A stretch of 64,000 bases of DNA from the NCBI GenBank assembly GCA_019059635.1, contig JAGVRJ010000006.1, positions 2,294,001-2,358,000 of the forward strand. Reading direction: 5' to 3'. A model generated the notes under the pieces. That model had not been told where the DNA came from, searched no databases, and saw only the letters and a list, made by a program, of their open reading frames with translations. The DNA is from Proales similis. Lineage: Eukaryota > Rotifera > Eurotatoria > Ploima > Proalidae. Shown piece after piece: positions 3,277-38,256 of this stretch (position 1 is its first letter; every line of letters starts with the position of its first letter). The translations under genes were made by a program, and so were the position numbers.

Positions 3277-4046
3277 TCAAGCTCTTGAGAAAAGGGTGCC
3301 ACTTGCATAGCTTGAGATCGTTTCTCTTGTGCCCGTTTCAAAGCCCTGCGCTTTTAATGAACAGCTCCTATCCGATCTGTTGAACGAGAAGCCTTGACAT
3401 AGCGGATACGCACCGCAGTAATTGCAGCAAACGCTCTCTGATGCCACCTGGCTTATTTTTAGAATTTCTCTGTCGGCGTAGTTCACTCCATCCTCCACAA
3501 CACAATTGGCTGTTTTTGTGCTGGTGGCTATTGACGCCGAACTAGTCGTGGCTGGCAAAGAACTAGACGACGAACTCGGTGTCGACGAGCTGCTTGTTGT
3601 CGGCAGGGTGCTTGTTGCCGGAGGCGATAGACTACTCGTGCTCAGGGTGCTAGTCGGTGGCGGTGAGAGACTACTCGTGCTGACAGTCGTGGTACTCGGA
3701 GGCTGAGGTCGGAGACCGGCCATTACTTTGCGTCAGAAAAGCTTGATAAAGGTTCACTGTGCAATCCGTAATAATTTTTCAACTCACAGAATGGCTCTGG
3801 AAAAGCGAGAGGGCCAAGCACTGAATATTTAAGCGAACATTCGGAATTAAGCGGATTAAAAGTCCAGGCATGGCAGATCGGATTCTGAAGACAAAAGTCA
3901 CAACAAGAGTCGGCTGAATTTTGCCGAACCGTCTGTATGGTCAGGCCTGTGTAGTCGACATTCAGCGTGAAACTGCACTGAGCCGCAACGCCATTGTGAG
4001 TGAGCAAGAATAGACTCACTGTCGATGCAATGAATATTGCGAGCAT
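3277..4046 (-). CDS. Secreted two-PAN-domain protein 1
   Basis: Predicted secreted protein of 235 aa in two exons, 3788-4046 and 3277-3725, split by a 62-bp phase-1 intron with a GTGAGT donor. It has a signal peptide (about residues 1-22, ending GVAAQ). PAN domain 1 follows with the cluster signature C..NVDYTG, then CC.FC, C..WTF, and C.LK. A Ser/Thr/Pro-rich mucin-like linker starts exon 2. PAN domain 2 has VNYAD, CCNYC, C.GFSF and C.LK. PAN/Apple modules bind proteins or carbohydrate; the ligand here is unknown. A TATA box lies at 4105-4111. It is the first of three same-strand neighbours of identical layout. It would be secreted and probably heavily O-glycosylated on the linker. Confidence 0.82.
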
Positions 4047-4104
4047 TTTTTTTTTGAGAAATATTCTTTGAATGGATCTTGAAATAAATCAGCGAATGAG
4101 CGCA

Positions 4105-4111
4105 TTTTATA
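4105..4111 (-). promoter_or_regulatory. TATA box of PAN gene 1
   Basis: On the minus strand this reads TATAAAA, about 60 bases upstream of the ATG at 4046. The position fits a core promoter with a short leader. Confidence 0.55.
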
Positions 4112-4321
4112 CAACTCCGGCCGGCCAACAAGCCGACAAGGGATTGTATAACTCGACGAGGAAATCGATGCGCAGCAATTCGAAACCTTTATATCCCGTT
4201 TCGTTCACTCTCTTTAAGGGCCATGCCCTAATCGGCACGCACAAAATAGAAGCGAATTCAATTTCATTTCAAATTAACTTTATTCAAAGCTTTAGAACTA
4301 AAGTGCCCCACTAAGTTTTAT

Positions 4322-5100
4322 TTAACCGCTGAATTGGACAACACCGCTGGTGATTCCCGGGTAAGGCTGGCCGGCCGCGTTTATGTTGAAGCCGGCACCC
4401 TTCAGATAGCAGTATCTCGAATTCTGGAGGTAGGCAAAGCCAGTGCAGCCGGCGGTGCCAGCGCACAGATTGCAGCAGTCGGCCAATGAAGCCACGTTGA
4501 AGTTCAGCGATGTGGCAGCCAAGTCGTTGCCCGGGTAGTTGGTGTCGGCCACGTAGAAGCATCCCACGTTTGAGGTTACTGTTGCCTGGGTGGTCGTCGG
4601 CGCGGCAGTCACAATCGGGTTAACCGGCAAAAATGGATTAAACGTGTTGAACTGATTGTTAAAATTGTTGAATGGATAGACGTAGAAGAAGTTGTAATTG
4701 TAACCACTGTAGCCTGGAAAGTAGCTAAATGTTGAAATCTGCGCTGAAAGTTGAATGGAAAGTAAGAAAACTTACCGCCATAGCATCGTCTAAGAGCTGA
4801 ACCTCGAAGGACAGTGTTCTTGGTAGCCAGACTGCATCGTCCGTTCTGATAGGTCCACATCATGCAATTTTCAGTGTTCAAGCATCTCTCGCAGCATTCG
4901 TCGGCCGATGTGCTGGTCGTGTTGAAGGTGTCGGGTGAATTGATTTCGGTCTCAGATACGAATGAACATTTGCCAGCGGTCGTCGTGCTTGGCAACGCCC
5001 TAGTGGTGGTCGGTGCTCTTCGGGTAGTGGTCGGAATTTGGCCGCTTGCCATTTGCACAAGTGCAACACAGGCAATCAAAGCTACAGCTGCTCCTTTCAT
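4322..5100 (-). CDS. Secreted two-PAN-domain protein 2
   Basis: 238 aa in two exons, 4776-5100 and 4322-4713, joined in phase 1 with a strong GTAAGT donor. The start is the ATG at 5100, because it begins a clean signal peptide (MKGAAVALIACVALVQMASG). An upstream in-frame codon at 5124 is not preferred. A short PTTTR-type Thr-rich segment precedes PAN domain 1 (C.F..E.., CCERC, C.MWTY, CSL). The exon 2 linker is unusual: rich in Tyr, Asn and Phe (GYSGYNYNFF..FNNFNNQFN), followed by a short Thr stretch. PAN domain 2 carries TNYPGNDLA, CCNLC, C.GFAY and C.LK and ends ITSG. The GYSGY start of exon 2 is shared with the gene at 9134. A TATA box sits at 5173-5180. Confidence 0.82.
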
Positions 5101-5172
5101 TTCTCGTGTCCTGTTTAGTGTCAATTTAATCAGTTTCGTATCAATTGTAAAATACCGCTCGACTCGCTTGTC

Positions 5173-5180
5173 TATTTATA
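5173..5180 (-). promoter_or_regulatory. TATA box of PAN gene 2
   Basis: Minus-strand TATAAATA about 75 bases upstream of the ATG at 5100. The same octamer occurs upstream of the PAN genes at 9134 and 12270. Confidence 0.6.
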
Positions 5181-5533
5181 GGCTGTTTGTGCTCACCACT
5201 TGCCTGTGATTGTTGCGTAATTTTTGATTTGTCATTCAGGCGTCAACTCGGGCAATCCGCTTCAAAAATTTGCCGATCTGATCAGACAACATCGAAATTA
5301 AATCCATTAACCATTTGCAACAGTCACACTCATCGAAATGGCTCATGAGACATTTCATGCACATCTGCTGTAAAAAAGTCGAAACTCGAACCTCGAATCA
5401 TTTTATGAATCGGCGCGCAGTTTTCAACAACGCCCGCTTCGTTTCAAATTCGTTTAAATCACGTTGTGCACTTGTTGTTCTATTTATTTGAGAAAGAGAT
5501 TTCTGCTAGATTAAAAGTTTTCTATATTTTTTT

Positions 5534-6401
5534 CTATCTTCTCACGTAGCCACTGATTATGCCTGGATAAGCCTCTTCAAGTAAATCTTGGTTGTTTCTT
5601 TTCAAAAAGCAAAACAGCGCGTCAGGCAAATAGGCGAAGCCCTGGCAATCTGGATTGGCTGCGCAAATACCACAGCAATCGTCTTGGTCTTGCACATCGT
5701 AGTTCACGTCAGTCACATCCAAATCTTCGCCAACCAGATTCACATCCTCTCTGATATCGCACACAGGTGCAGTAGTTGTGCTCGTGGTGGTAGTTGTTGT
5801 TGTGGTGGTGGTCGTGGTCGTTGTAGCTGTCGTGCTTGGCGTAGTGGTTGGAGTAGTGGTAGTGGGGGCCGCAGTGCTGCTTTCAGTGCCAGTGTTAAAG
5901 CCAGCCGTGGTGGTCGTCGGAGGGGTGAAGCTCGGATCTAACGATGCCAAGGTCGACACTGAATTTACTGTGGTGGTCGGCACCAATGTGTTAAGGCCGT
6001 TTTGACTGGCAAGCAGGAAGTAGTAGTAATACGCCGAATAGAACGGTCGTTTACCGAAGCCCGACTGACCTTGAGATTTAAGAGGCAATTAATTGACATT
6101 TGACAATTTTAAGGAAAAACACCAGGCAGCACATACATCCTTTTCGTCGTCGAAAAGGCGAATTGCGCAGGACTGGCTCAGTTTTGGCCAGGTGGCAAAC
6201 ACCGTCTCTGAATGTCCACAGCAAGCATTCGGAGTCTGCGTGACACTTAAGACAGCAATCTTGAGCCGAGCTAGATGCTTGATGGCCCGAGCTTTCGGTG
6301 TTTATCTCCACTTGGTCAAACACATCGCATTTGGGCAGAGCGTTCGCTTCGAACGGGCGAACGTTCCAAATTAACAACACAGAAATGATGATCAATTTCA
6401 T
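5534..6401 (-). CDS. Secreted two-PAN-domain protein 3
   Basis: 266 aa in two exons, 6137-6401 and 5534-6069, phase-1 intron with a GTATGT donor. The start ATG at 6401 begins a signal peptide (MKLIIISVLLIWNV...). PAN domain 1 has CDVFDQVEI, CCLKC, C.LWTF and CHL and lacks the DY.G motif. The exon 2 linker contains a long Thr tract (about residues 165-195, mostly ACN codons) next to Thr/Pro/Ser repeats, an obvious O-glycosylation or length-polymorphism site. PAN domain 2 has VNLVGEDLD, CCGIC, C.GFAY, CFLK and ends PGIISGY. The upstream TATA-like CATAAATA at 6442-6449 is weaker than in its neighbours. Confidence 0.8.
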
Positions 6402-6987
6402 ATTGAACTGTTTGATTCGACCTGTTGGACAATGTTGCTCATATTTATGATCGACACACCGAAATCGGATACATTTTCTCAGCGTTAGATACGCATGCCA
6501 AGTGAGAGGCATCATCCATTGTGGCTATTGACAGAGATAAAGCCGCTGCGGCAGTCAAGTATGAGACAGGCATCTTTATGGCTCTGTGTCGGCGTCTCAA
6601 ATTACGTCGCAGTAGCCCGAATGTCTTGAGCGTCTCTTTCGTTTCTTTTATTTTATTCAATTAGAACGTGCTGGTTGAATTGAATTTTGAAGGTGTCTAA
6701 AAGGCTTTGCCGCGTTCAAGTGCGCAAACAATGGAGGATAAGAGCTTCCATTGCTCTGAGCCAAATTGCTCTCGCTGCCTCTTTTTCTTTCCAAATCAAA
6801 ACACAAACCGATCGCGCACAAACACTTGGCGGCTGGGAATTTTTCTTTTATTTTCTTCTCTCCTGTTCGGTACGTTTGCGTTCAGAGCTAACTTGCAAAC
6901 AGACCTGCTACAGCGCCTATGATGCAACTACCGCTTTTAGCCTCGTCGGTCAGCTCGTCGGTGGCCGGTTCACACGACAGACGAGCC
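6402..6987. other. Divergent intergenic region
   Basis: It lies between PAN gene 3 (minus) and gene B (plus). It should hold both promoters and the 5' leader of gene B. Short open frames here are not convincing. Confidence 0.4.
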
Positions 6988-7905
6988 ATGGGTCGTCCTC
7001 AATGTGTGGTGGTTCGTCAGAATCTTTCCAAATACTTTTATCTGAACGCGCTTACGAGCAACGACGCCGACGATGATCCGTCCGCTCTTTCAAATCAAAC
7101 GCTTCTTGGCAAAGAGCGAAAACTGACCGAGAAGTTTGGCATAAAAAAAGTCGACAAGCGCACAATCATGAGTCAGAGCGAGAAAAAGTCGCTGAGTGTC
7201 AACGGTAAATACGATAACTTGCTCGAGCTGACCAAACGAAACCTGGACCGCGAGCTGGCCGGTAGTCAAATTCAAATCAAGCGAGAGCAGAGCATTTTGT
7301 TCGAGCAGTTTCTCGAGCTCAACGGCTCGTTTAAAAATCGAAATGAAAAACCGCTGACAGTGCGCTCGGCCGATCTGTCCCAGCGCTCAGTCGCCCAAGT
7401 AGAAGAAAATCTAACTTCGAAAAGCTTCGCCTCGCTTCAAAATGAGCCGGCCGTTCGCTCCTACTTGGACCGCATCACAAAAAGATTTGTTGAGCAACGT
7501 CGCTACTGTTATCCAAACTACTTGCGAAAGTCAAACAGAACGTGTTTAGACTCGAGCACTATTTCAATCGAAGGTAATGTTTGACTCTCTTCTGGCTTTT
7601 CTAATTTAGATTTAGACTTCTCTCTCTTCTCCTTGATCCTATCCACACACACACACACACACACACACGTGCCCAAATTGACGATGGTGTTTTTAGAAAA
7701 GCTAAAGAGAGCACACGACCGGGCCAGAGAGCGTTGTTCGAAACAGCGTAAACATCGAATAGCGCAGTTTAAGGCAGAATTCTACACCGATAGTAAACAG
7801 CTTGTCAAGTCGCATCCCGAAATGAAAGAGCTTCTTCTCGCCACCAGCGAGTTTGAGAAGCAAACAAAATCGGCCACTAAAAATAAATCCAATAAAAATA
7901 TTTGA
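6988..7905 (+). CDS. Coiled-coil protein B, paralogue of gene A
   Basis: Unrecognised, 264 aa. Exons are 6988-7573 and 7697-7905, joined in phase 1 (GAA|G with GTAATG donor; TTTTTAG acceptor). The ATG at 6988 was chosen because it aligns with the start of gene A; an in-frame ATG at 6919 is possible. The protein is hydrophilic, helical and highly charged. The paralogous blocks are listed under gene A, ending in KRAHDRARERCSKQRKH, then F...F..D...LVKSHPEMKEL. There is no signal peptide or membrane segment, unlike its secreted PAN neighbours. The intron carries a (CA)n microsatellite. A basic, helical C-terminus of this type could be a cytoskeletal or ciliary component, but that is only a guess. 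Confidence 0.65.
7644..7668. repeat. (CA)n microsatellite in gene B intron
   Basis: About twelve uninterrupted CA units sit between the donor at 7574 and the acceptor ending at 7696. Confidence 0.9.
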
Positions 7906-7967
7906 GAAGAGAATGACGCAGGTCGGTGGACGTTTTAATAAACAAATTTTGAAGCGACCAATCCAGC

Positions 7968-7974
7968 TATTTAA
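7968..7974 (+). promoter_or_regulatory. Possible TATA-like box of PAN gene 4
   Basis: TATTTAA lies about 52 bases upstream of the ATG at 8026. It is a weaker match than the TATAAATA boxes of its neighbours. Confidence 0.35.
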
Positions 7975-8025
7975 GGCGGCTCTCAATTAATCGCACGCAA
8001 ATATTTTTATGTTCATTCAATAAAA

Positions 8026-8683
8026 ATGCTCACGTTCAAGACTCTATTTTGCTTTGCTCTGCTGACAGCTGCTGCTCTGGCACAGCAGTGCAGCTTTGAG
8101 AATAACATTGACTATTACGGCAGCGATCTGCCCCAGTCGCCGTTGAGCGCCAGCTCTGCCCAAGCATGCTGCAATCTCTGCCTGACTTTCCCCAACTGCC
8201 AGATTTGGACTTTTGTGTCTGGCTCCTGCTGGCTCAAATACGCAGTCGGCTCACAAAGGCGCCCTGCGGTTGGACGTAAGTGACTCTAAACCCTTACTCG
8301 ACTGAGCAAAGTCTATACTTCACTGCTCTTTTTATCAAAAATTCTATTTGTTCGCAGGTGTGTCAGGAGTTAGACTCGTTAGTCCGCCAACATCGACCAA
8401 CGCGCCAACTATTTCGACAACTACAACTACCACTCGGGCAGCATCGACCACAGCGTTCGGAGTTTGCCGCATCGAGTTCAATCGCAACTACTTTGGAAGC
8501 GACTTGGCCGTTCGTGGCTTCGTTCCGTCGATCAGCGATTGTTGTAATCTGTGTTACGCAACTCCAGGCTGTTTGGCTTGGTCCTACGTAAACCAGAGTC
8601 AATCATGCTTTTTGAAGAGCGCATTGCCCAACGCATCCAACAACGCCACTTACGATGGCATTGACTCGGGTTACCGATTTTGA
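8026..8683 (+). CDS. Secreted two-PAN-domain protein 4
   Basis: 191 aa, exons 8026-8275 and 8358-8683, phase-1 intron (GTAAGT donor, TTCGCAG acceptor). The signal peptide is MLTFKTLFCFALLTAAALAQ. PAN domain 1 has CSFENNIDYYGSDL, CCNLC, C.IWTF and CWLK. The linker is short (about 30 residues, mainly Thr, Ser and Pro). PAN domain 2 has FNRNYFGSDLA, CCNLC, C.AWSY, CFLK and ends GIDSGYRF. AATAAA polyadenylation signals lie near 8831 and 8849. This is the most compact full-length member. Both domains keep the N.[DN]Y.G.DL motif. Confidence 0.85.
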
Positions 8684-9133
8684 TTGCGTCACCACATGCG
8701 TTCAATAGAAATCAAGCCTTCAACTCTTAAGCCTTAGAGCCCGCCCCTTTTCCTTCGCATACACTCGGCTCTCTACAAACCTGAGGCCCCCTTTTACTCT
8801 GTGACTTGTAAGCACTGCCTTTAAAGTTGCAATAAAATTCAATTTAGAAATAAAATCTTAAACCAATTGCTCACAGCGCGTTCTCCTCATTGCCAAAGTA
8901 ACATGATCGTAATCCATTCGTCATGTGGTTGCATAACTTTTTCTCCCATTCAAACCTCTCCTGCAAGCATATTCGCACAGTTGACATGTGTACGCTTGAA
9001 ATGTGATAGCCAATAGAAGATTACAAATCCTCGGCCCACAGTATAAATACTAGTCCTTGTAGCACTGTTTGAATCATCAATCGACTCGAGAAGAGTAAAG
9101 CAATCGAACTACAAGAAATTAGAAATCTACAAT
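8684..9133. other. Gap with 3' UTR of PAN gene 4 and promoter of PAN gene 5
   Basis: It contains AATAAA near 8831, and a TATA box at 9042-9049 that is listed separately. Nothing else is recognised. Confidence 0.5.
9042..9049 (+). promoter_or_regulatory. TATA box of PAN gene 5
   Basis: TATAAATA about 85 bases upstream of the ATG at 9134, preceded by a CCAAT-like CCAATAG near 9011. Confidence 0.65.
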
Positions 9134-10019
9134 ATGCAGGCCCTCATTTCACTAAGTCTGTTGGCGCTGATCGGCTTTGCCCAGTGCTGGTTCCCTCAGC
9201 CTAATCCACCAGCTCCAGTACAACCCATTCAGCCCATCTATCCATCTCATCCTCCACAGCCGGCCTATCCAACCCAGCCCCCGCATCCAACCTACCCGAC
9301 TCATCCTCCTCAGCCAGCCTACCCGACTCATCCTCCTCAGCCAGCCTACCCGACTCATCCTCCTCAGCCAGCCTACCCGACTCACCCCCCGCATCCGACC
9401 TATCCATCGCACCCGACATCGAACACGTGCTCAATCGAGAAGAACGTCGACTACTTTGGCTACGACCTCTACCACAATCCATTCTACACGATCTCGTTCG
9501 GCGAGTGCTGTAATCTTTGCCAAATGGACAAAAACTGCCGCGCGTGGACCTACCATCCGGACACCAAAGCTTGCTGGCTTAAAAAGACTGTGGGCATCAA
9601 AACAACAGTGAGCGACGGAAGTAAGTCTCTTCGTAGATGCATTCCGCTTTATTATTCGATCTGATCGGCCGTTTTCACTCGAAGGATACTCTGGCTATGT
9701 TCAGTCGACCGCGACGACCACTCATCCTACTCCGGCGACCACCCATCCGACCACTCCATGCCCTCCAGGAACCACTACAACCAAAAAGACCGGCTGCTTC
9801 ATTGACGTGGACTACAACTACCCGGGCAGCGATATCGGCGGACAAGGCCAAGTTAAATCAACGGCTGAATGCTGCTCGTTGTGCGCCAATAAGCCGGGCT
9901 GCAAATCGTTTGCCTACTTTGTGCCGTTGAAGTACTGCTTCTTCAAAGGCACATCGCTCAACTCTCAAGCTCGCATGAAGTACCCGGGCATCAACTCGGG
10001 CCATCCGATCGACGCCTAA
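9134..10019 (+). CDS. Secreted two-PAN protein 5 with proline repeats
   Basis: 273 aa, exons 9134-9620 and 9685-10019, phase-1 intron (GTAAGT donor). The signal peptide is MQALISLSLLALIGFAQC. A block of nine-residue repeats of the type YPTHPPQPA follows (about residues 25-95), before PAN domain 1 (VDYFGYDLY, CCNLC, C.AWTY, CWLK). Exon 2 opens with YSGY, then a THPTPATTHPTT linker. PAN domain 2 has VDYNYPGSDIGG, CCSLC, C.SFAY, CFFK and ends PGINSGHP. The repeat is placed before the first PAN domain, unlike other members. Tyr/Pro/His-rich tandem repeats of this kind are common in secreted structural or adhesive proteins; that role is inference. Confidence 0.85.
9237..9415 (+). repeat. In-frame 27-bp proline-rich coding repeats
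   Basis: Tandem units of about 27 bp encode variants of YPTHPPQPA. Three central units are nearly identical in DNA (CCGACTCATCCTCCTCAGCC core), which points to recent unequal exchange or slippage. Confidence 0.85.
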
Positions 10020-10509
10020 ACATTCAAATCAACTAGACACAGTTTTCCAATCTTAATTCAAATATTTGCATGCGCTTTAGAAAGCGTGCAAGCCACCTGC
10101 CTTACACACACACGCACGCACACACATTCTTAGAAGCAAACGAAGCATAGAGAGAGCTTTCACTATGATTAGGCTAGAACGATCTCTTTGAACTGTTTCT
10201 GTGCGGTTAAACTTTTTTTTTTCTGTGTTTCTAAATAAAATCGGGAGCTTGATGCAAAAAAGTGATTTTTCGAAGGAGTCAGATTACTGCTGTTTTGACA
10301 TAGAGCGCCACATTCGAGCCAGTTTATCTTATGCGGTCGAGCGAATTAATAATTGCTCTCAAATTCATGCCGACGATCTACCAACCTTCAACAAAAATTT
10401 TGAAAAGTTACGTATAAGCGTAAGAGAGTAAAAGCGCCGATCCAAAGATAGAATTGACATTCATTCAACATAAATGCAAATATTGCTGGTGTGCGATACA
10501 AGCAGAGCA
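10020..10509. other. Gap between PAN genes 5 and 6
   Basis: It holds ACACACGC repeats at about 10105-10125. A short open frame from the ATG at 10252 to 10431 (about 59 codons) has no recognisable domain. There is no clear TATA box; ATAAAT occurs near 10470. Confidence 0.4.
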
Positions 10510-10975
10510 ATGAACACTTGTCTAGCGATCGCCCTTCTCACTTGTTGGCTGTTCTCGGCCACCAATTGTCAGCTCTTGTGCTCCTATCAGCCCAACATAG
10601 ACTACTTTGGCAATGACATATTCGAAACAGGTAACGTGAGCTACACAATCGACGAGTGTTGTCTCGCTTGCCAGAAAGAGCAGCGATGCCAGATATGGAC
10701 CTTTATTCCATCAACGAACGTCTGCTGGCTCAAGACCTCAGTCGGTAGTCGGAGACTCAATTCACCAGGCCGTAGGCTACCATTCCTCAATTCTCTCGCT
10801 CATTCCCCTTCTAATTCAGCTCATTTTTGTTGCTGCAGGATTCTCTGGAGCCAAGCAGCAGGACGCAAGCACTAAACCGCCAATCATATCTGGAAGCGAC
10901 CATTCAGTTGTACTGAGCACTTTTTTCATTTTCTCGCTTCAATATATTTTCCTTTTCTTCTTCTTCTCTTTTTGA
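10510..10975 (+). CDS. Single-PAN protein with GPI-like tail
   Basis: 132 aa, exons 10510-10771 and 10839-10975, phase-1 intron (GTAGGC donor, TTGCTGCAG acceptor). The ATG at 10510 gives a good signal peptide (MNTCLAIALLTCWLFSA). An earlier in-frame ATG at 10474 would spoil it. One PAN domain is present: IDYFGNDIF, CCLAC, C.IWTF, CWLK. Exon 2 starts with FSGA, like the FSGY/YSGY starts of its relatives. It then goes to a short hydrophilic stretch, a small-residue site (SGSD), and a strongly hydrophobic C-terminus rich in Phe, Leu and Ile ending directly at TGA. That is the layout of a GPI-attachment signal, or a minimal transmembrane tail. The second PAN domain is missing. AATAAA lies at 11018-11023. 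Confidence 0.72.
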
Positions 10976-11214
10976 GCTTTTCTCGCAAACTTCAAACTTA
11001 AGAATAGGATTCTGTGAATAAAACCTAAAATCGCAGAGAGCGAGAAAGATCTTTCTTTTGAATGACTGGAGAATGCCTTGTCACGGACCGCATGCATGTC
11101 GAGTCTGGTCCATGATGATCAAGAGCAAAGAGCACCGACTCTGCCCACCGGAAATAGTGAAAGGAGTGAACTGTTAGCGAGACTATAAAGATAGCACTGG
11201 TTTACGAGTCGATT

Positions 11215-11700
11215 ATGATGCAAGAAGGACGACCCATCCATGCGAAGCTAAATTTCATCAAAGGAGAGAAGAAGAGCCGGTGGAAAGGCGGTAAGACGCT
11301 GAACGCGCGACCGAAACTCAAAGGAGAACACAAGCGAGAAAGCATAGAAACGCTAAAGCCGAAAGGAAAGTGCTTTAACTGCGGAAAGACCGGACATTTT
11401 GCCAAAGATTGCTGGAGCAAGGAGGGCAAAGAACATACCCAGAATAAAAAGATAATGAGTCGCGGTGGAGAACTATCCCGGAAAGGAATAACCAGGGTAA
11501 GGAGTAAAAAAGAAGGGATAGAGAAAGACCTCATCCTAAACAGCGGCGCCACGATCTCAGCCATGTAAGCGGATATGCAGAGGAAGAGAGGATTTGACCT
11601 CGAACCGCCAGAGACAACAGCCTTCATCGGGTTTTTGACGTTTTGATAGAGAGAACGATGCAAGTTAAAACGGGGCCGACAACACATGAAAATCACATAG
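11215..11700 (+). mobile_element. Decayed retrotransposon gag/protease fragment
   Basis: An open frame at 11215-11568 contains a CCHC zinc knuckle (CFNCGKTGHFAKDC) in a Lys/Arg-rich context. Downstream is a stretch resembling the start of an aspartic protease, in which the catalytic Asp is replaced (NSGAT). The frame is stopped soon after and similar residues continue past the stop. This is the order of an LTR-retrotransposon gag-pol junction (copia-like by the knuckle spacing and SGAT). No long terminal repeats, integrase or reverse transcriptase are visible nearby. It is a dead remnant inserted inside the PAN cluster. Confidence 0.6.
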
Positions 11701-12269
11701 AACTTTAGAGCAATATTCTACTTCGATTGGATTGGGATGCAACTCGCTTGCAAAAACCGCTTTTTGAATTTTAATTTTCTTTTTAATTTCTTTCATACAA
11801 TCCAAGAATGAAAAAGACGGGTTTTCGTTAAATTGTAAAAGAGAAATTCACAACACAGGTTAAGTTTTTTTTTAATTTAAAAGAAAAAAATAAGAAACGG
11901 GAGCGCTTGTTGAAAATGTTCGCACGAATTGTAATCTGATCGCAGAGGAATAGGGCTTGCGCTCGTGCGCTCGCGCGAAAAAATTGACATTGGAGATGAG
12001 CTGGCCGAACGGCACACTCAGAAAACATGAGAATTGCATAAGAATCGCAAACTCAATTGACTTGCAATGTGTCCATGTTACACGAATGATGCAATAGTCG
12101 GTGAGACTAAGCTCTCTCAAACAGCTCGGGCCCATCGGCGGTAATTCGAACCGCGTTCAACCCCTACAAGACGGGCATGAAGAGATTTATCTATAAATAG
12201 GGGCCGTGCGCTCTGTCACCCAATCGAATATTTCTTTTTGAAAGTAAAACTAGCAGAAACAAGACTAGA
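11701..12269. other. Gap upstream of PAN gene 7
   Basis: Nothing coding is recognised. There is an A/T-rich block near 11760-11895. The promoter of the next gene lies at its right edge. Confidence 0.45.
12192..12199 (+). promoter_or_regulatory. TATA box of PAN gene 7
   Basis: TATAAATA about 70 bases upstream of the ATG at 12270. Confidence 0.65.
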
Positions 12270-13013
12270 ATGTTGAAGATTGTGCTTTTTTTGGGTCTTT
12301 TTTGCCTCTCGCTGGGCCAACAGTGCGGCTTCCGAAGCAACACTGACTACTACGGCAATGATCTTCGCACAGTGTTCGTGGGCAGCCGCGATCTTTGCTG
12401 CCAGGCGTGCACCAATGACGCTCAATGCCAAGGTTTCAGTCTTTTAGGCCCTCCTCAATTGTTCTCGTCAAATTTAAACCCGTTCCCTTCAAGTTTGGAC
12501 GTATATTCCTCTCACGGGAGCCTGCTATCTCAAGTTTGCCATCGGCTCGCTTGTCTTTACTTCGCCTGGCCGTAAATTGAAATGAATATACGCGCATTCT
12601 CACGAGCCTAATTCTATGTTGAAATCTAAGGTGAATCGGGCGTCGTTCAGCGTCCTGCAACTACAACAACAAGCACGACAACTACAACAACTACATCGAC
12701 ATCGACCACAACCCCGCCGACAACCACCAGTGCTTCGACTTCAACTGCAACCACATCGGCAGCCACCACTGCTCCCACCACCACCCAAACGGGCGCCTGT
12801 TTTGTTGAGTATGACGTCAACTACCCGGGCAACGATGTTGGCGGTCAAGGAAACGTTGCGGACGCTGGCGAATGCTGCAACCTTTGCAAAACAAACGCCC
12901 AGTGCACCAACTGGTCCTACTACGTCGAGTTTAAATACTGTTTCTTCAAGACAGCCGCAAATGTTAGCCGACAAGTCTACACTGGCATTATTTCGGGAAC
13001 AGTTGTCAACTAG
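12270..13013 (+). CDS. Secreted two-PAN-domain protein 7, three exons
   Basis: 207 aa, exons 12270-12432, 12494-12571 and 12631-13013, all introns in phase 1. The signal peptide is MLKIVLFLGLFCLSLGQ. PAN domain 1 has CGFRSNTDYYGNDL and CCQAC. An extra intron interrupts this domain just before VWTYIP, CYLK and AIGS. Other family members have no intron there. The exon 3 linker is almost pure Thr with Ser, Pro and Ala. PAN domain 2 has VNYPGNDVGG, CCNLC, C.NWSY, CFFK and ends GIISGTV. The 3-exon model is supported by a perfect frame across both joins. Confidence 0.82.
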
Positions 13014-30209: not shown

Positions 30210-33200
30210 ATGCCCGTGCTGGAGGACTGGAAAAAAGACCCGTTGAGCATTATTGACAACTTGTTCGAAGCGGACGAGAATACTTACGAAGAAAAGATCA
30301 TCGAGTACTTTGAAGGCAAACTTAAATCGCCTAGCGACTACTACTCGGTAAGAAATAAATAAGCGAAAGAGAGAGAGAATCAAAAACCTTCACTTTTATA
30401 GATACCATGCTTGAACGATGTTCCTCTAAGCGAGATAAAGCCCAACAGCCTTGTACGCTTCCGCGGCATGATTCAGGATTCGTTCGATCCGGTCTATTTT
30501 GCCGCCTCGCAAAAGCTAAAACATGTGAAAAGCGGCGAGTTCAAGCAACTAACCATGAAATACAAGGAGTGTCTGCAACTAAGCGTAAGTCACTTGGCAT
30601 TTAACCAAAGTAAAACTGAAATCGAGATTAAACAATCGAAGCCTGACTACGAGCCAAGTCATGATCACGTTGAGACCGTGTTTGAGAATGCGTCGCATCA
30701 CCTTCGACAGCGAACTACATTTTATTGCGTTCCAATTCCTGGCGAGAGCCAGTGGGTCAAAGAGGCAGGCCAAACGCAAACTGCACGTGCCTTCATTTTC
30801 TTGACAAAACCGTCCATTTACAGGAATTTAGGAGGCTTCATGAAATGTTCGCTCAACGGCCCCAAACCACTCAATCATCTGTCGAAATGATTCCAACAGA
30901 ATTAGAAGAGCAGCGACCACCCAAACGGTGAGCACCTTGGCCAATTTTAAAATGAACATGGCTGGCTAAAATTTGAGCTAAATAAAGCGCTCTGGACAAT
31001 AGTAGCGAGGAAATTGTGGTGGAATCGGACAGCCACGAGAACAAAAATGGCAGCAAACAGCAATGCAAAGATTCGGACGGCTCCGAAGAGTCGAAAAAAA
31101 GAGACGAGAATCAGGCGTTGAAGAATGTAGAGCTGTGCTTTCCGCTAGGCAAACTCGAGACCGGACGTCCGTGTCTGGTCAAAGTCTACGAAGAGCGAGA
31201 CCAATACAAAATAAACGATTTGGTCGAGTTCGTTGGCATCTATAGTCAAGAGCCTCTGCTGGCCTACTCGTACGACGAGCATTCAGACGAATGTGGCCTT
31301 CATTCACAAATGGAGCATCTGACAGTGAACAAAAGCGAAAACGACAACTCTCTACCACCACGAGTTCCTTCCTTGTTCCCGCCCTCGCTCGTGCCTCGTA
31401 TTCATTGCATTCGATCGTTCAAATTGCTGCACGACAATCCTTATCTCGAATCAAACACTTTGCCGAGTAAGCTCCTGTCCCACTCATCAATAACAGCATC
31501 ACAGTTCTCATCAACACTCGAACATGGCCACAGGAGAGACAGAAGAAGAAACAAGCTATTGGAACAAGCAGTTTCATGACTTCATAAACGACTTGTACAA
31601 ACAGTCAAATCAAAAGGTGCCGGATCACTCGACAACCAGTCAAATTCATGTGCCTCTTGTTCAGCTGAGACACGAAATAGTCGAGCTGCTGCAGGAAATG
31701 CTTCTCGGCGACGCACTGGCCGCAGAGTATCTCCTCATGCATTTGATATCTTCTGTGTAAGTTTGAGCGTTTCCTAAAGTGTTCTTATTGTGTTTGCATT
31801 CATCTTTCTCTCGGACTCGCTTTCACCAATCGATTGCAAGAGGCAGGAGGGAAATAGCCAATGTTTGTATTTTAAAATCTAAATTGAATTCAAGAGCTCA
31901 TTAAAGAGTCGTTCGAATTCGACTCTTGAATGTCAGAAACACGCGGACGAAAGAAGAGTTGTTGACGTTTGTTGGCATGCCTCTTGTCCTCTTGGCCACG
32001 TTTTACCGACACGTTTCTCAAATTCACTCTCAAATGTTTGTTTTGAATGCTGAGATAAGCGCGCTCGCGCCTCTGCTCGTCAAGTCGCATCAGCTCTGCT
32101 CTAAGCTGCTCTTGGCGTTTCTCTTTGATTCTCTCACTTCGCCTCAGGTTTGGATCTGGATTCATGAGCATTTTTAATTGATTCTCAATGATCTCAATCT
32201 GCTCGTCGAGTGTTTGCTTGGTTTTCCTGTGCGACACGTCAATGTGCGGCCGACGTCGTCTGCGTCGGGAACGCCGCTTGCTTTTGCGCATCGCATCGAT
32301 CTCGTATTTCTCAAACATGTCGCCGATTGAACCGTCATGTACTGAACTCTCATCAACACTCATCGCATCCTCATGTTCTTCTCTCTCAAACTGATGCCGG
32401 CTCAGTGCCCGTGACGGGCTAATTGACGGCTCAGCACTCAATACCAACTCTGACATGTCCATGTTGATCATATTGTCCGACTGAATCTGATGACGTTCTT
32501 GTTCGACGCTCTTTTGAAACTGAAGATTTACTTGGTCGAAGTCCGGTTCGATCTCGAGCAAAAAAACCTTTTTTCGGGCAGGAGCAGTCAGATCGCTCTT
32601 GTCGAGTTTCAGTTTGGAGATTTTCTCCGTCAGGCCAGTTGCTCTCGCTACCGTTGGCCGCTCGGGCGTTTTCTCGTTTCTCTCCGAGCTGATTACAAAC
32701 GTCTCAGAGCGTGATTCGTTTATTAGACGGCCAGAGTGCGCTTCTAGTCCGATCGAGTCACTATTAAGCCTCCTAATCACTATTCTGCTTGTCTTGTCGT
32801 CGTCTCTGTTTGAAAGCAGGCCATTCGTCGGACTGGACAAAAAGTCACTCCGTGACGACCGCTTTGAGTCAAATGCCTGTTCAGTCGGCTTTTCGAGTGA
32901 GTCCACACGATGAACTTCAATCTGGTACTCTGACTCATCCGCAGCGGTGAAAGCTTGATGTTCTTCGCCTTGTTGACTTGCTGCATGGTAAACTTCGACA
33001 GCCTTGCTTGTATGCGGACTGTTGATTGAGACTGAATGCGAATACTTGGTTTTGGAGGGCACTGCGATCGTCTGCCGCTTGGGTAGCTCGATAGAATTCA
33101 GGTCGCTCTGACTTGATTGACTTCGAGCCGAGGTCCTTGAAAAACGCATTCGATTGGACGGCGTTGACGAGTATTTCGGTACGTCCAAGTAGCGAGACGC

Positions 33201-34618
33201 TTCCGAATGACGCTTGAGCTCTTGAAGAACCGAAGTCTGCACAGCCTTTACTTCAAAGCTCTTCTTCGATCTTGTTTGCCGTGTTGGCACGGGAATTCGA
33301 CTTTTCATTCTTTCAGCTCTGTGAATGCTCAATGTCGTTTTTGCGTTTATTCTCAGTCTCGGCTTTTCGATTACGCGCGAGAATCAGAACTTGTCAATTG
33401 AATGAAGGCGGTCGTCAACTGAAAACGGCCAATTTGATTTTGATTACTAGATTTCTACGCAACAACCCAATCAACTCAAATAACTATAGATACATTGCTT
33501 CTGACTTGAAGGTTCGCGCGACGAGATGTTACAACCCTTGGAAAGTTCGCGCTCAACATTACCAACGTTCCGAAAGCGAGCGATGGCCACCAGGACACGT
33601 TCGGCAGATGTTTTACCGAAGCATTGGCCAGAATTGTTCCGATGGTAGGTGCCTCAGTAAATACAATTTAGTCAAAACGATTTCCGACTTCTGACCCCCA
33701 AGACTCATCTATTTGAAATGTCGGTTGAAAATCTCAACAAGGCAACGATGATTCCAAACAAGGACTACAACAAGAACAAGCTTCTGTCCGGCCTACTTCA
33801 GTTGCCAGACCGTTTTGAGCTGGTGATTGATGAGACCACTTTAAATACTGGCAAACTTGACTCGAAAGGTTTGAGACAAAAATAGATGCTTGCGTTGGTT
33901 CCTTTTTCCTTGAATAGACTTTAAGGATGCTTGAATGTGAACGCTCTCAAGGACGTAATCAAGTGGCAAAAACTTGACTACGACTTCAACTATCACAGTC
34001 AAGCGTTTAACACCGACATGAGAATTTGCGTTTTATCTGAAGCAAATCCAATTGTTCCGGTAAGTTAGCCCAAGACCGTAGCGTTAAAAAGCATGCTAAT
34101 CAAACGATATGAAAATTATTGAAAAGTTCGACTTGAAAGTAAAATTAAAAAATCGCGAAACAAATGAAAGATTCAATCCAGAAGAATATCGAAAAGCAGT
34201 TGAAAATCAATATTTGAAATCTAAACAGAATTTTGTCAGGAATCTACGAGTCTATTTTGATGTGATCTCAAAAATGCAGTACAGTCTAAGTGAATCTATA
34301 CAAAAGGTAATTCCCTGAGACAAAAATAAAGTGACCTAAGAGCCAGAAAGAAATTTCAAAAAACAACAAGGTGGTGGAAGATGAAATTGTGTCAATCAGA
34401 AAAGGCAAGAGCTGGAAGAAGGAAGGAGCCTTGGAAATAGATGACTTTCATACACTGATGGTGGTTGCAAGGTAAAGAAAAATAATCATAAAAAGGGGAA
34501 AGGAAACGACTAAAGATGAAAAAGGCTACAAAGTGTAAGCTTCGGAAAATCAACGCTGGGAATCGATGAGTGGAATAGGGCAAAACATATTGAGTCAGAA
34601 AGGTTGTCACGAATTTAG
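30210..34618 (+). CDS. MCMBP: MCM-binding protein, 11 exons
   Basis: About 678 aa. Exons: 30210-30347, 30402-30786, 30900-30927, 31003-31466, 31534-31756, 33512-33644, 33703-33868, 33926-34059, 34127-34306, 34371-34471 and 34534-34618. MCMBP binds MCM3-7 in place of MCM2 and helps unload and protect MCM complexes. Conserved blocks occur in order: IPCLNDVPLSEIKPNSLVRF, FYCVPIPGESQWVKEA, PCLVKVYE, PSLVPRIHCI, LLGDALAAEYLLMHLIS, NKLLSGLLQLP..LVIDET, IKWQKLDYDFNYHSQ, DDFHTLMVVAR and STLGIDEWNRAKHIESE. The exon 2-3 boundary is unsure (an alternative exon 3 starts at 30824). Intron 5 (31757-33511) is by far the longest and encloses an antisense gene. Exons 9-11 are clearly more A-rich than exons 1-8. 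Confidence 0.9.
31890..33308 (-). CDS. Unknown 472-aa basic protein nested in MCMBP intron 5
   Basis: Single coding exon on the strand opposite its host. The ATG is at 33308; a CAG just upstream (near 33316) suggests a 5' UTR intron. Not recognised. The N-terminal 300 residues are polar and Ser-rich, probably disordered. A very basic stretch follows (KSKRRSRRRRRRPH, about residue 350), like a nuclear localisation signal. After that come a helical segment (LDEQIEIIENQLKMLM) and a second basic helix (NLRRSERIKEKRQEQLRAEL). A nuclear or chromosome-associated role is plausible but unproven. It lies wholly between MCMBP exons 5 and 6. Confidence 0.7.
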   Translation of the reverse strand: MKSRIPVPTRQTRSKKSFEVKAVQTSVLQELKRHSEASRYLDVPKYSSTPSNRMRFSRTSARSQSSQSDLNSIELPKRQTIAVPSKTKYSHSVSINSPHTSKAVEVYHAASQQGEEHQAFTAADESEYQIEVHRVDSLEKPTEQAFDSKRSSRSDFLSSPTNGLLSNRDDDKTSRIVIRRLNSDSIGLEAHSGRLINESRSETFVISSERNEKTPERPTVARATGLTEKISKLKLDKSDLTAPARKKVFLLEIEPDFDQVNLQFQKSVEQERHQIQSDNMINMDMSELVLSAEPSISPSRALSRHQFEREEHEDAMSVDESSVHDGSIGDMFEKYEIDAMRKSKRRSRRRRRRPHIDVSHRKTKQTLDEQIEIIENQLKMLMNPDPNLRRSERIKEKRQEQLRAELMRLDEQRRERAYLSIQNKHLRVNLRNVSVKRGQEDKRHANKRQQLFFRPRVSDIQESNSNDSLMSS

Positions 34619-34740
34619 ATAATTGAGCAGAAAGCAATATGGCGATTCAATCCGAAATTTAATGAGTCCAAAATTTACAAAAAAAGACAATCAATCAATA
34701 TAAATATGAAACAAAAAATAAAGAATTGTAAAAACAAAAA

Positions 34741-37544
34741 ATGAAAAGAATTTTAATTCTATTCTTCCTTTGTGCAATCTCAAACCAAGGTAAAATGTCA
34801 CTAAAATCCAGAACAAAAGTAATAAATACAAGTTCAAAAGCAAAAGGATGGTCGTGTAAAGGAACGATCGGCAGAAGATGCTCATACAGTCCTGAATGTG
34901 ATGAAACAGTTGGACTAAAATGCATAAATATGTATTGTAAATGTGAAGGCGGAAAAAAATGGGAAGGAGGAAAATGTCAAGAAGGTAAAATAACAAAAAT
35001 AAAAATTGATGAAATATGAATAAAAATTAAATTACAGAACAAGAAACAACAACCAAAGCCACGGTCGGCAGAAACTCCAGCCCGGTAAATCGACCTGGCG
35101 CCAAATGCGACAAGCAAACGCCCTGTGACGGCAAAATCGGTCTGTCCTGCGTCAAAGGCAAGTGCCAATGCAGAAAAGGGTCCCAGTTCAACTCCGGCAA
35201 GTGTGGTTAGTACCTCGATGTATTCTCATAAAAAGTCGCCTAACGACCCAAACCAAGAACCAGCCAAGGCCCAGGCCACAAGAAAACAAGCTCCTGCCAA
35301 GATCGATTCTACAAAAAAGGAATCACCTGCCAAGGCCCAAGCCGGCAGAAACCCCGGCGCGGTAAATCGACCTGGCGCCAAATGCGACAAGCAAACGCCC
35401 TGTGACGGCAAAATCGGTCTGTCCTGTGTCAAAGGCAAGTGCCAATGCAGAAAAGGGTCCCAGTTTAGATCCGGCAAGTGTGGTTAGTCCCGGGTTGTAT
35501 TCTCTTGAAATGTCGCCTCACGACCCGATTAAGAACCAGCCAAGGCCCAGGCCACAAGAAACTCCAGTCCGGTAAATCGACCTGGCGCCAAATGCGACAA
35601 GCAAACGCCCTGTGACGGCAAAATCGGTCTGTCCTGTGTCAAAGGCAAGTGCCAATGCAGAAAAGGGTCCCAGTTCAACTCCGGCAAGTGTGGTTAGTCC
35701 CGGGTTGTATTCTCTTGAGATGTCGCCTCACCACCCGATTAAGAACCAGCCAAGGCCCAGGCCACAAGAAACTCCAGTCCGGTAAATCGACCTGGCGCCA
35801 AATGCGACAAGCAAACGCCCTGTGACGGCAAAATCGGTCTGTCCTGCGTCAAAGGCAAGTGCGAGTGCAGAAAAGGGTCCAAGTTCAAATCCGGCAAGTG
35901 TGGTTAGTCCCGAGTTGTATTCTCTTGAAATGTCGCCTCACGACCCGATTAAGAACCAGCCAAGGCCCAGGCCGGCAGAAACTCCAGTCCGGTAAATCGA
36001 CCTGGCGCCAAATGCGACAAGCAAACGCCCTGTGACGGCAAAATCGGTCTGTCCTGCGTCAAAGGCAAGTGCGAGTGCAGAAAAGGGTCCCAGTTTAGAT
36101 CCGGCAAGTGTGGTTAGTCCCGAGTTGTATTCTCTTGAAATGTCGCCTCACGACCCGATTAAGAACCAGCCAAGGCCCAGGCCGGCAGAAACTCCAGTCC
36201 GGTAAATCGACCTGGCGCCAAATGCGACAAGCAAACGCCCTGTGACGGCAAAATCGGTCTGTCCTGCGTCAAAGGCAAGTGCGAGTGCAGAAAAGGGTCC
36301 CAGTTTAGATCCGGCAAGTGTGGTTAGTCCCGAGTTGTATTCTCTTGAAATGTCGCCTCACGACCCGATTAAGAACCAGCCAAGGCCCAGGCCGGCAGAA
36401 ACTCCAGTCCGGTAAATCGACCTGGCGCCAAATGCGACAAGCAAACGCCCTGTGACGGCAAAATCGGTCTGTCCTGCGTCAAAGGCAAGTGCGAGTGCAG
36501 AAAAGGGTCCCAGTTTAGATCCGGCAAGTGTGGTTAGTCCTGAGTTGTATTCTCTTGAAATGTCGCCTCACGACCCGATTAAGAACCAGCCAAGGCCCAG
36601 GCCGGCAGAAACTCCAGTCCGGTAAATCGACCTGGCGCCAAATGCGACAAGCAAACGCCCTGTGACGGCAAAATCGGTCTGTCCTGCGTCAAAGGCAAGT
36701 GCGAGTGCAGAAAAGGGTCCCAGTTTAGATCCGGCAAGTGTGGTTAGTCCCGAGTTGTATTCTCTTGAAATGTCGCCTCACGACCCGATTAAGAACCAGC
36801 CAAGGCCCAGGCCACAAGAAAACAAGCTCCTGCCAAGAGCAATTCTACCCAAAAGGAATCACCGGCTAAAGGCAACGGCGGCCAGCCATCAAAAGATTCT
36901 AACTCCCATGACAATATTGGTCCTCGGTTAGGTGTTTCTTCGACAAATTTTAGATCAGGACAAGAAAGATCTATTAATTCCTCATTACCAAGTTAGAACA
37001 GTTTATTTCCAGCTTAATATTTTTGTACATTTTATCGTGTTTTTAGAAATATTTTCTCTCGAACAGCACGTGTTTTACTACGGCAATAACATTAAGATTA
37101 TTGATGACCTTAGAACCGCAAACGACTGCCAAAATGAATGCCAAAATCTAGACGAATGTCTCTCGTTCAGTTTTCACAATGGCTCATGTCATTTGAAATC
37201 ACGGCTTCGTTTTGATAAAACTTTAAGATCAATTTTGGGCGCAATATCTGGATATGTTGTTAACGGTTTGTGTATTCATTTTTATTGTATCCGATTATTT
37301 TTTGTTTATTTTCATAGTTTCTTCGTGTTCTAGCGTCGGAAGGGCAGGAACCGTCGACCTGAGTTCTCAAAGCCGTCAGTTTTATCGTCATTCCAATGTT
37401 AACGAGTGCTGCGTCATGTGTCACTTTCAAGTCAAGTGTGTTTCTTGGACCTTCTTCAAACTCACTTCGATGTGTTCTATCAATTTCTCTCTTATGTCTT
37501 CGCCCCGCAGTTCCCCATTAGTGATTTCATCTCTTAAATCGTAA
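34741..37544 (+). CDS. Secreted multi-module Cys-rich protein joined to two PAN domains
   Basis: Best model is 714 aa in 12 exons, every intron in phase 1: 34741-34984, 35038-35205, 35258-35482, six 159-bp exons starting at 35534, 35744, 35954, 36164, 36374 and 36584, then 36794-36931, 37047-37265 and 37348-37544. Signal peptide MKRILILFFLCAISNQ. Exon 1 encodes a divergent Cys module. Exons 2-9 each encode one module with spacing C-x5-C-x7-C-x4-C-x-C-x10-C, like an EB domain, joined by Pro/Ala/Lys-rich linkers. The next exon is a polar spacer. The last two are PAN domains (YYGNNI, C.FSF, CHLK; then CCVMC, C.SWTF, C.I). If the 36932 donor is not used, the protein ends at 36996 (597 aa) and the PAN exons would be a separate gene without a visible start. 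The function is unknown; it is secreted. Confidence 0.68.
35534..36793 (+). repeat. Six tandem 210-bp exon+intron units
   Basis: Each unit is one 159-bp phase-1 exon plus one 51-bp intron (GTTAGT...GATTAAG). Starts are spaced exactly 210 bp. The last four exons look identical and their introns differ by about one base. Two longer, older copies lie just before (35038-35205 and 35258-35482). The pattern indicates recent unequal exchange or gene conversion. Confidence 0.93.
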
Positions 37545-37551
37545 TAAACAT

Positions 37552-38256
37552 TTATTCTTCGCCTAGATTCTCCAACAGAACAATGAATCTTTTATCTCTT
37601 AACGCGTTAGCTTGTATCGTTTGTAGCATTTGCTCATTTTTCTTTTTCTCTTTATGCTTTCGTTTTTCGCTTCTGAGATACTCTTTGCCGGCTTGAGTCA
37701 GGGTTAGTTCGATTTTGGCTGGATAGTTGTTGAGGAACTGCTTGTCTACATCCGAGTAGCGGCTATAGAGCTCATTGAAATTCTGACGCACCTCAATTCT
37801 GGGTAATTTTGGTACCTTTGATGCTTCTTGCTCAATATGTAATGTTTGATTTCGCTTCTCGTCCGGCAGTGTAGGTTCTGACGGGTAAAATGTGAGCCTC
37901 ATTTCTTTTAATTTTAACTGACGCTGAAGCAACTCAAATTTGGTCTTTTCACTCTGCCCTAATATTCGGCTGTCTGCTTTGTCATAATAGGACTTTAAAT
38001 TGTCAAGTTTTTTTGAATGAATCTTCCTACACACTGTTCGGTAGTAGTCTCTAAACCGGGCGTCGTCCTGCATCCATTTGTTTCTCTTTTGATTTATTCG
38101 ATTCAGGAATATTTGCGAGCCCGTTTCGATTGTCTGCGAGCTTCTCATGTGATCGGCCTCTATTCTGTCCATCCGTCGTTTTATCTCTTTGTTGAATGAC
38201 TGCTCGTTTTTGTACAACGCTTCGGCATATTTACTCTTCAATTCTCTCTCAATCAT
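37552..38256 (-). CDS. Unknown 234-aa coiled-coil protein
   Basis: Single exon, not recognised. It is highly charged and helical throughout, with no signal peptide. It begins MIERELKSKYAEALYKNEQS. There are several Lys/Arg/Glu-rich heptad-like stretches and a very basic segment near the C-terminus (RSEKRKHKEKKKNEQ). A general resemblance in size and composition to genes A and B near the first PAN cluster is noted, but I find no alignable blocks. Its stop is only 7 bases from the stop of the converging PAN gene, so the two 3' UTRs must overlap. Confidence 0.6.
   Translation of the reverse strand: MIERELKSKYAEALYKNEQSFNKEIKRRMDRIEADHMRSSQTIETGSQIFLNRINQKRNKWMQDDARFRDYYRTVCRKIHSKKLDNLKSYYDKADSRILGQSEKTKFELLQRQLKLKEMRLTFYPSEPTLPDEKRNQTLHIEQEASKVPKLPRIEVRQNFNELYSRYSDVDKQFLNNYPAKIELTLTQAGKEYLRSEKRKHKEKKKNEQMLQTIQANALRDKRFIVLLENLGEE

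Follow-up and report, generated by a model that had tools for sequence, protein, structure and literature searches.

The gene described in this report lies on the forward strand of a contig from the monogonont Proales similis, a small marine rotifer, at positions 34741–37544 of a stretch of 64,000 nucleotides, referred to throughout as ‘the window’. It comprises a signal-peptide-like exon and a diverged EB module, followed by eight tandem EB modules, a linker exon and, finally, two PAN/apple exons. The reading we favor, and consider probable, is that these parts belong to a single gene encoding a secreted EB–PAN protein of 725 residues. All 12 introns of the gene model, in which the junction with the PAN exons is corrected to 36991/37047, are phase 1, as a sequence-only reading of this DNA had proposed; the 11 introns other than the one at that junction are 51–57 bp long. 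G+C content shifts sharply within the gene, from 30% at 34741–35037 to 54% in the array and 38% in the tail (whole window, 45%). Upstream lies a gene for an MCM-binding protein (30411–34620), identified by a PF09739 match on the exon at 30411, with later exons recognized by eye from about 33560. Its reading frame ends, also by eye, ~120 bp before the start of the array gene. Because its exons resume at about 33560, a 480-residue open frame on the minus strand (31890–33332) appears to be intronic. Elsewhere the window contains a mitoferrin gene, whose closest named proteins, among the matches listed, are from Brachionus (72–74%). Rfam and tRNA scans of the 64,000-nt window gave no matches.

The first exon (34741–34789) supplies the start codon and what, by eye, resembles a signal peptide (MKRILILFFLCAISNQG), and ends at a phase 1 donor, AAG/GTAAAA. 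Exon 2 (34847–34984) encodes a diverged EB-type module with the cysteine spacing C-x5-C-x7-C-x4-C-x-C-x10-C, which matches the array module weakly (34% identity, E 0.044). The array proper follows. Module 1 (35038–35205) is a 168-nt exon with a linker of its own and a diverged, 52-bp intron behind it; module 2 (35258–35482) is a 225-nt exon with a long, basic linker; neither of these first two units is 210 bp in length. Modules 3 to 8 are 159-nt exons (35534–35692, 35744–35902, 35954–36112, 36164–36322, 36374–36532 and 36584–36742), each followed by a 51-bp GT–AG intron, which makes six units of exactly 210 bp. Over the 840 bases of the last four units only one base varies, in the intron of module 7; the other three units are identical. 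For the array this confirms the sequence-only reading, which had described eight tandem exons encoding one cysteine module, six of them in exact 210-bp units of 159-bp exon and 51-bp intron, with the last four units nearly identical; eight are read at 35038–36742, and to these we add the older, ninth module of exon 2. The cysteine spacing of exon 2 is present in all nine modules of the gene, a pattern that was defined only after the modules had been read.

That the array of EB modules is real, as assembled in this contig, is confirmed. Tandem Repeats Finder reports it as a single array at 35325–36813 (period 210, 7.1 copies, 97% matches) with a score of 2775; the second best of the program's 13 rows for the window scores 230. 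The Pfam EB profile (PF01683) matches six stretches with 81.1 bits, against a curated cut-off of 24.3, a score taken on a 335-residue piece that includes the diverged module and, of the eight array modules, numbers 1 to 5. Together, array and linker have a pI of 9.85 and contain 15% lysine and 48 cysteines. When the array unit was used to search the 32.7-Mb genome at the DNA level, all eight reported matches fell within the array itself, and none was reported outside 34741–37544. The EB modules gave no match in the PDB.

Behind the array lies the linker exon (36794–36991), which starts like module 2 and is without the cysteine core, and behind that the two PAN/apple exons (37047–37265 and 37318–37544). 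The second of these ends with the stop codon, a TAA overlapped by an AATAAA poly(A) signal at 37543–37548. The first PAN exon matches Pfam PAN_1 with 38.8 bits (E 8.1e-10; curated cut-off 21.4); the second, at 18.6 bits, falls below the cut-off on its own, and this counts against the single-gene reading. The earlier claim that EB-like modules are followed by two PAN domains is thus borne out for the EB modules and the first PAN domain, and less firmly for the second. By alignment, though, the second exon appears to fit within the PAN family: four cysteines are invariant in all 14 aligned PAN sequences from the window, namely both exons of the tail and 12 matches from a PAN cluster that has 13 (the other, 12342–12452, was omitted as incomplete). 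AlphaFold models of the two exons (mean pLDDT 70.6 and 72.2, respectively; pTM 0.52 each) show a helix between strands, with ends of low confidence. A profile of the 14 sequences, carried mostly by the cluster exons rather than by the tail, finds the apple domains of factor XI and plasma kallikrein (best E 1.9e-20). Searched alone against the PDB, the tail matches apicomplexan microneme proteins weakly (best E 0.0036), and phospholamban more weakly still.

The cluster in question occupies 3280–13010 and consists of ~7 secreted PAN genes, grouped by eye, with 13 PAN matches; six of the genes have two PAN exons and one has one. Most begin with a signal-peptide-like PAN exon, continue with a threonine-rich or proline-rich linker, and end with a second PAN; one such linker contains a tandem repeat of 27/54 bp (9246–9402). 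PAN exons are therefore common locally, since this cluster, at 3.3–13 kb, shares the window with the array gene.

How the array is connected to the PAN exons decides whether this is one gene or two. The sequence-only reading had the array spliced into the PAN exons from a donor at 36931; the join is supported, the donor is not. That donor, TAG/GTGTTT, has a log-odds score of −0.13, which 44% of the GTs in the window equal or exceed, and it would leave a 115-bp intron, whereas the 11 others of the gene are about half as long. In its favor, it too is phase 1 and keeps the frame (giving a model of 705 residues), and longer introns can be seen in the genome by eye; moreover, 115 bp is beyond the reach of the search from which the splice matrix was trained. 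The matrix was built from weighted candidate introns elsewhere than in the array, 44 in number and 25 with a score over 18. These were themselves inferred, were seeded by an assumed animal donor consensus, and had to contain an in-frame stop; the matrix is mute on longer introns, because only lengths of 38–89 bp were admitted. Within that range, 19 of the 25 are 45–65 bp. By the same matrix a donor at 36992, CCAA/GTTAGA, scores 3.17, close to the 3.10 of the array donors (TGTG/GTTAGT). The junction is better placed here, at 36991/37047, where it yields a 55-bp, phase 1 intron (36992–37046) with the acceptor TTTTTAG. Fusion through the 36931 donor, or the use of both donors as alternatives, seems to us highly improbable.

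Were the array and the PAN exons to belong to two neighboring genes, the first would stop at the in-frame TAG at 36994–36996 and encode 578 residues, and the second would be a PAN gene the 5′ end of which is unseen. The frame is indeed open through to this TAG. The TAG, however, coincides with positions 3–5 of the donor CCAA/GTTAGA, and is more likely to lie inside a donor than to end a gene: because the array donors and the 36992 donor are both phase 1, each places an in-frame TAG at these same positions of its intron. Between the TAG and the PAN exon lie only 50 bp, and they contain no AATAAA or ATTAAA on the plus strand; the sole such motif within 36700–37700 is the one at 37543 that overlaps the PAN stop. 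Nor does the first PAN exon (37047–37265) contain an in-frame ATG, which speaks against a separate PAN gene and led us to reject the PAN exons as the downstream cistron of an operon. A start could be sought at 36908, the only plus-strand ATG within 36800–37060, which encodes MTILVLG before a stop and enters a possible donor at 36927 scoring 1.91; by eye, so short a peptide does not convince as a signal peptide. The evidence is not one-sided. None of the 25 training introns begins with GTTAG, and the acceptor at 37046 is of average score, equaled or exceeded by 54% of AGs; furthermore, the neighboring upstream gene seems, by eye, to hold an intron of ~1.8 kb. On the side of the 36992 donor, across the rest of the window a donor of at least 3.10 stands 45–65 bp away in 345 of 11268 AG–phase combinations (3.1%), and a GTTAG in 38 of 11268 (0.34%), counts that were made after the 36992 site had already been seen. 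On balance the evidence largely favors splicing of the array into the PAN exons over an end at the TAG, and we consider two separate genes unlikely.

The array appears to have grown recently, and by the copying of whole exons together with their introns. Compared with the other units, unit 1 differs at 11–13 of 51 intron sites and at 1–5 of 123 sites in the cysteine core of the exon (p at most 0.00072 in each of seven comparisons, all of which involve unit 1, so that they are not independent). The exons are therefore kept as coding sequence, whereas the intron has drifted. All eight units agree over a central stretch of 67 nt in the exon (probability 0.00012 if the 19 variable columns among 150 fell at random), and this would fit exchange between units by gene conversion. 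Third positions alone, compared with unit 1, give mixed p values, from 0.0025 to 0.08, so selection on the protein could also underlie the identity of the 67 nt. Addition and removal of modules might proceed by unequal crossing-over between 210-bp units; the frame survives such gain and loss, since every module is a symmetric, phase 1–1 exon. Symmetric 1–1 exons and unequal crossing-over are, together, a textbook route to the gain of modules. The newest units would be the last four, and exchange between units may also homogenize the cysteine core. The single base that separates these four supports the earlier proposal of recent amplification, and it is also what one might expect of a faulty assembly, because near-identical arrays are difficult to assemble and three of the four units are the same. 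If so, the true number of modules could be smaller or larger. Yet the near-identical units add up to only 840 bp, which is little for long reads, and the earlier units differ from one another; we think an artefact quite improbable, and recent expansion the supported reading.

By match position, neither the combination of domains nor the array itself was met a second time in the genome (32,716,893 bases in 15 contigs). EB matches number at least 13, four in the array and at least nine elsewhere, plus two weaker places (E about 0.012–0.013); these are lower bounds, because the search listed only four of the eight array exons and missed EB-type exons that were read later. PAN matches number at least 19 at E 0.01, and at least 38 at E 0.05. 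By match position in these lower-bound lists, no second EB–PAN locus was seen, and the closest EB and PAN matches outside the window are about 26 kb apart (contig C8). So far as these positions show, the two kinds of match share no locus elsewhere, and the pairing is thus seen once in the genome. The cysteine spacing of the array recurs at six places in five of 15 other loci that were read (L038, L039, L040, L047 twice, and L050), while L046, L048, L049 and L051 have EB matches without the exact spacing. Two of these loci, L038 (4191–4532, minus strand) and L039 (3723–4064, minus strand), carry EB-type exons that are nearly the same in sequence and lie 14.5 kb from each other on contig C4. In three others (L048, L049 and L051) the protein, which by eye has one hydrophobic stretch close to its N-terminus, carries many EB-type modules unlike one another, all within one long open frame. 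On contig C9, two near-identical open frames lie inverted ~10 kb apart (L042, 4532–5434, plus strand; L043, 3991–4965, minus strand); L042 matches Laminin_G_3, and both have a weak, PAN-like match at the N-terminus (E 0.21 and 0.097, respectively).

Homologues were sought among proteins preselected by shared words and by length. The 705-residue model, built with the 36931 donor, gave none at E 0.01 among 7998 candidates scored, and the PAN tail of the 725-residue model none at E 10 among 145 candidates of similar full length; that no homologue from another species came to light in these searches weighs against the single EB–PAN gene. The mitoferrin served as a control: of 8000 candidates scored, 2263 matched it, with Brachionus among the closest named. 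Rotifer proteins are therefore present in the collection; none from the Proales similis genome was among the 120 control matches listed. EB and PAN paired in one protein were not found in a limited search of the open-licence literature. In the part of it available, PMC3839933 lists EB and PAN domains separately, and the corresponding part of PMC8878817 mentions neither ‘apple’ nor ‘PAN domain’. The sequence-only reading had called the architecture undescribed, and this holds within these limited searches of literature, proteins and genome positions.

What the protein does can be suggested from its parts. It would carry nine EB modules on basic linkers behind a signal peptide, with two PAN/apple domains at the C-terminus. 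If the PAN domains bind a ligand, the lysine-rich EB array might serve as a spacer or crosslinker that is held by disulfide bonds and can be adjusted. The most likely role, we infer, is that of a multivalent binding protein, extracellular or at a surface: in the matrix, in an adhesive, in the egg coat or in surface recognition. A bolder possibility, to which we attach little weight, is that a rotifer protein for surface or recognition functions, specific to this lineage, arose when an EB exon array came to stand before a pair of PAN domains, and that its number of modules varies within populations, making length or valency a fast-evolving trait, the counterpart in Proales of the mate recognition repeats of Brachionus. 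Whatever its role, the gene is a clean natural case of protein growth through whole-exon duplication, with graded copies of exon and intron adjoining in a very small animal genome, and with the array probably joined to a second domain family, a pairing that our limited searches did not find elsewhere. If copy number varies among clones, the rate at which modules are gained and lost could be measured directly.

Each component of the gene has relatives among known systems. The EB domain is shared with the EB proteins of Pfam, multi-EB proteins encoded elsewhere in the Proales genome included, and the six-cysteine spacing recurs in the loci already listed. Several of the multi-EB proteins of this genome are built of unlike modules within one large exon, and PAN matches are absent for about 26 kb around them; in the array gene, in contrast, each module has an exon to itself and the modules are nearly identical. 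PAN/apple domains are familiar from coagulation factor XI, plasma kallikrein and the micronemal proteins of apicomplexans. With these proteins, and with the local cluster, the tail of the array gene shares four cysteines and a PAN_1 match, above the cut-off in its first exon; the cluster genes place a threonine-rich or proline-rich linker between one PAN and the next, whereas in the array gene both PAN exons come after the EB array. The multiplication of extracellular modules as symmetric (1–1) exons, with phase 1 introns on either side, is a general principle, and from other such arrays the Proales array differs only in how recent and how regular it is.

A parallel among rotifers is mmr-b of Brachionus, which likewise has nearly identical tandem repeats and, in common with the array gene as read by eye, a signal peptide. 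According to the part of PMC3495898 available, mmr-b has two to nine nearly identical repeats, for which concerted evolution is suggested; full repeats are 261 bp in mmr-b and 276 bp in mmr-a, and are described with helices. That part mentions no EB or PAN domain in MMR, a comparison made by description. As a mark of the MMR family we took a repeat of 261 or 276 bp with a terminal repeat of 243 bp; the array gene has instead a coding repeat of 159 nt in a 210-bp unit. We therefore do not file it as an MMR, and would regard mmr-b as an evolutionary analogue. The components of the Proales gene, and the way in which it would have grown, are already known from such systems; what makes it of interest is their combination, and the regularity and youth of the array.
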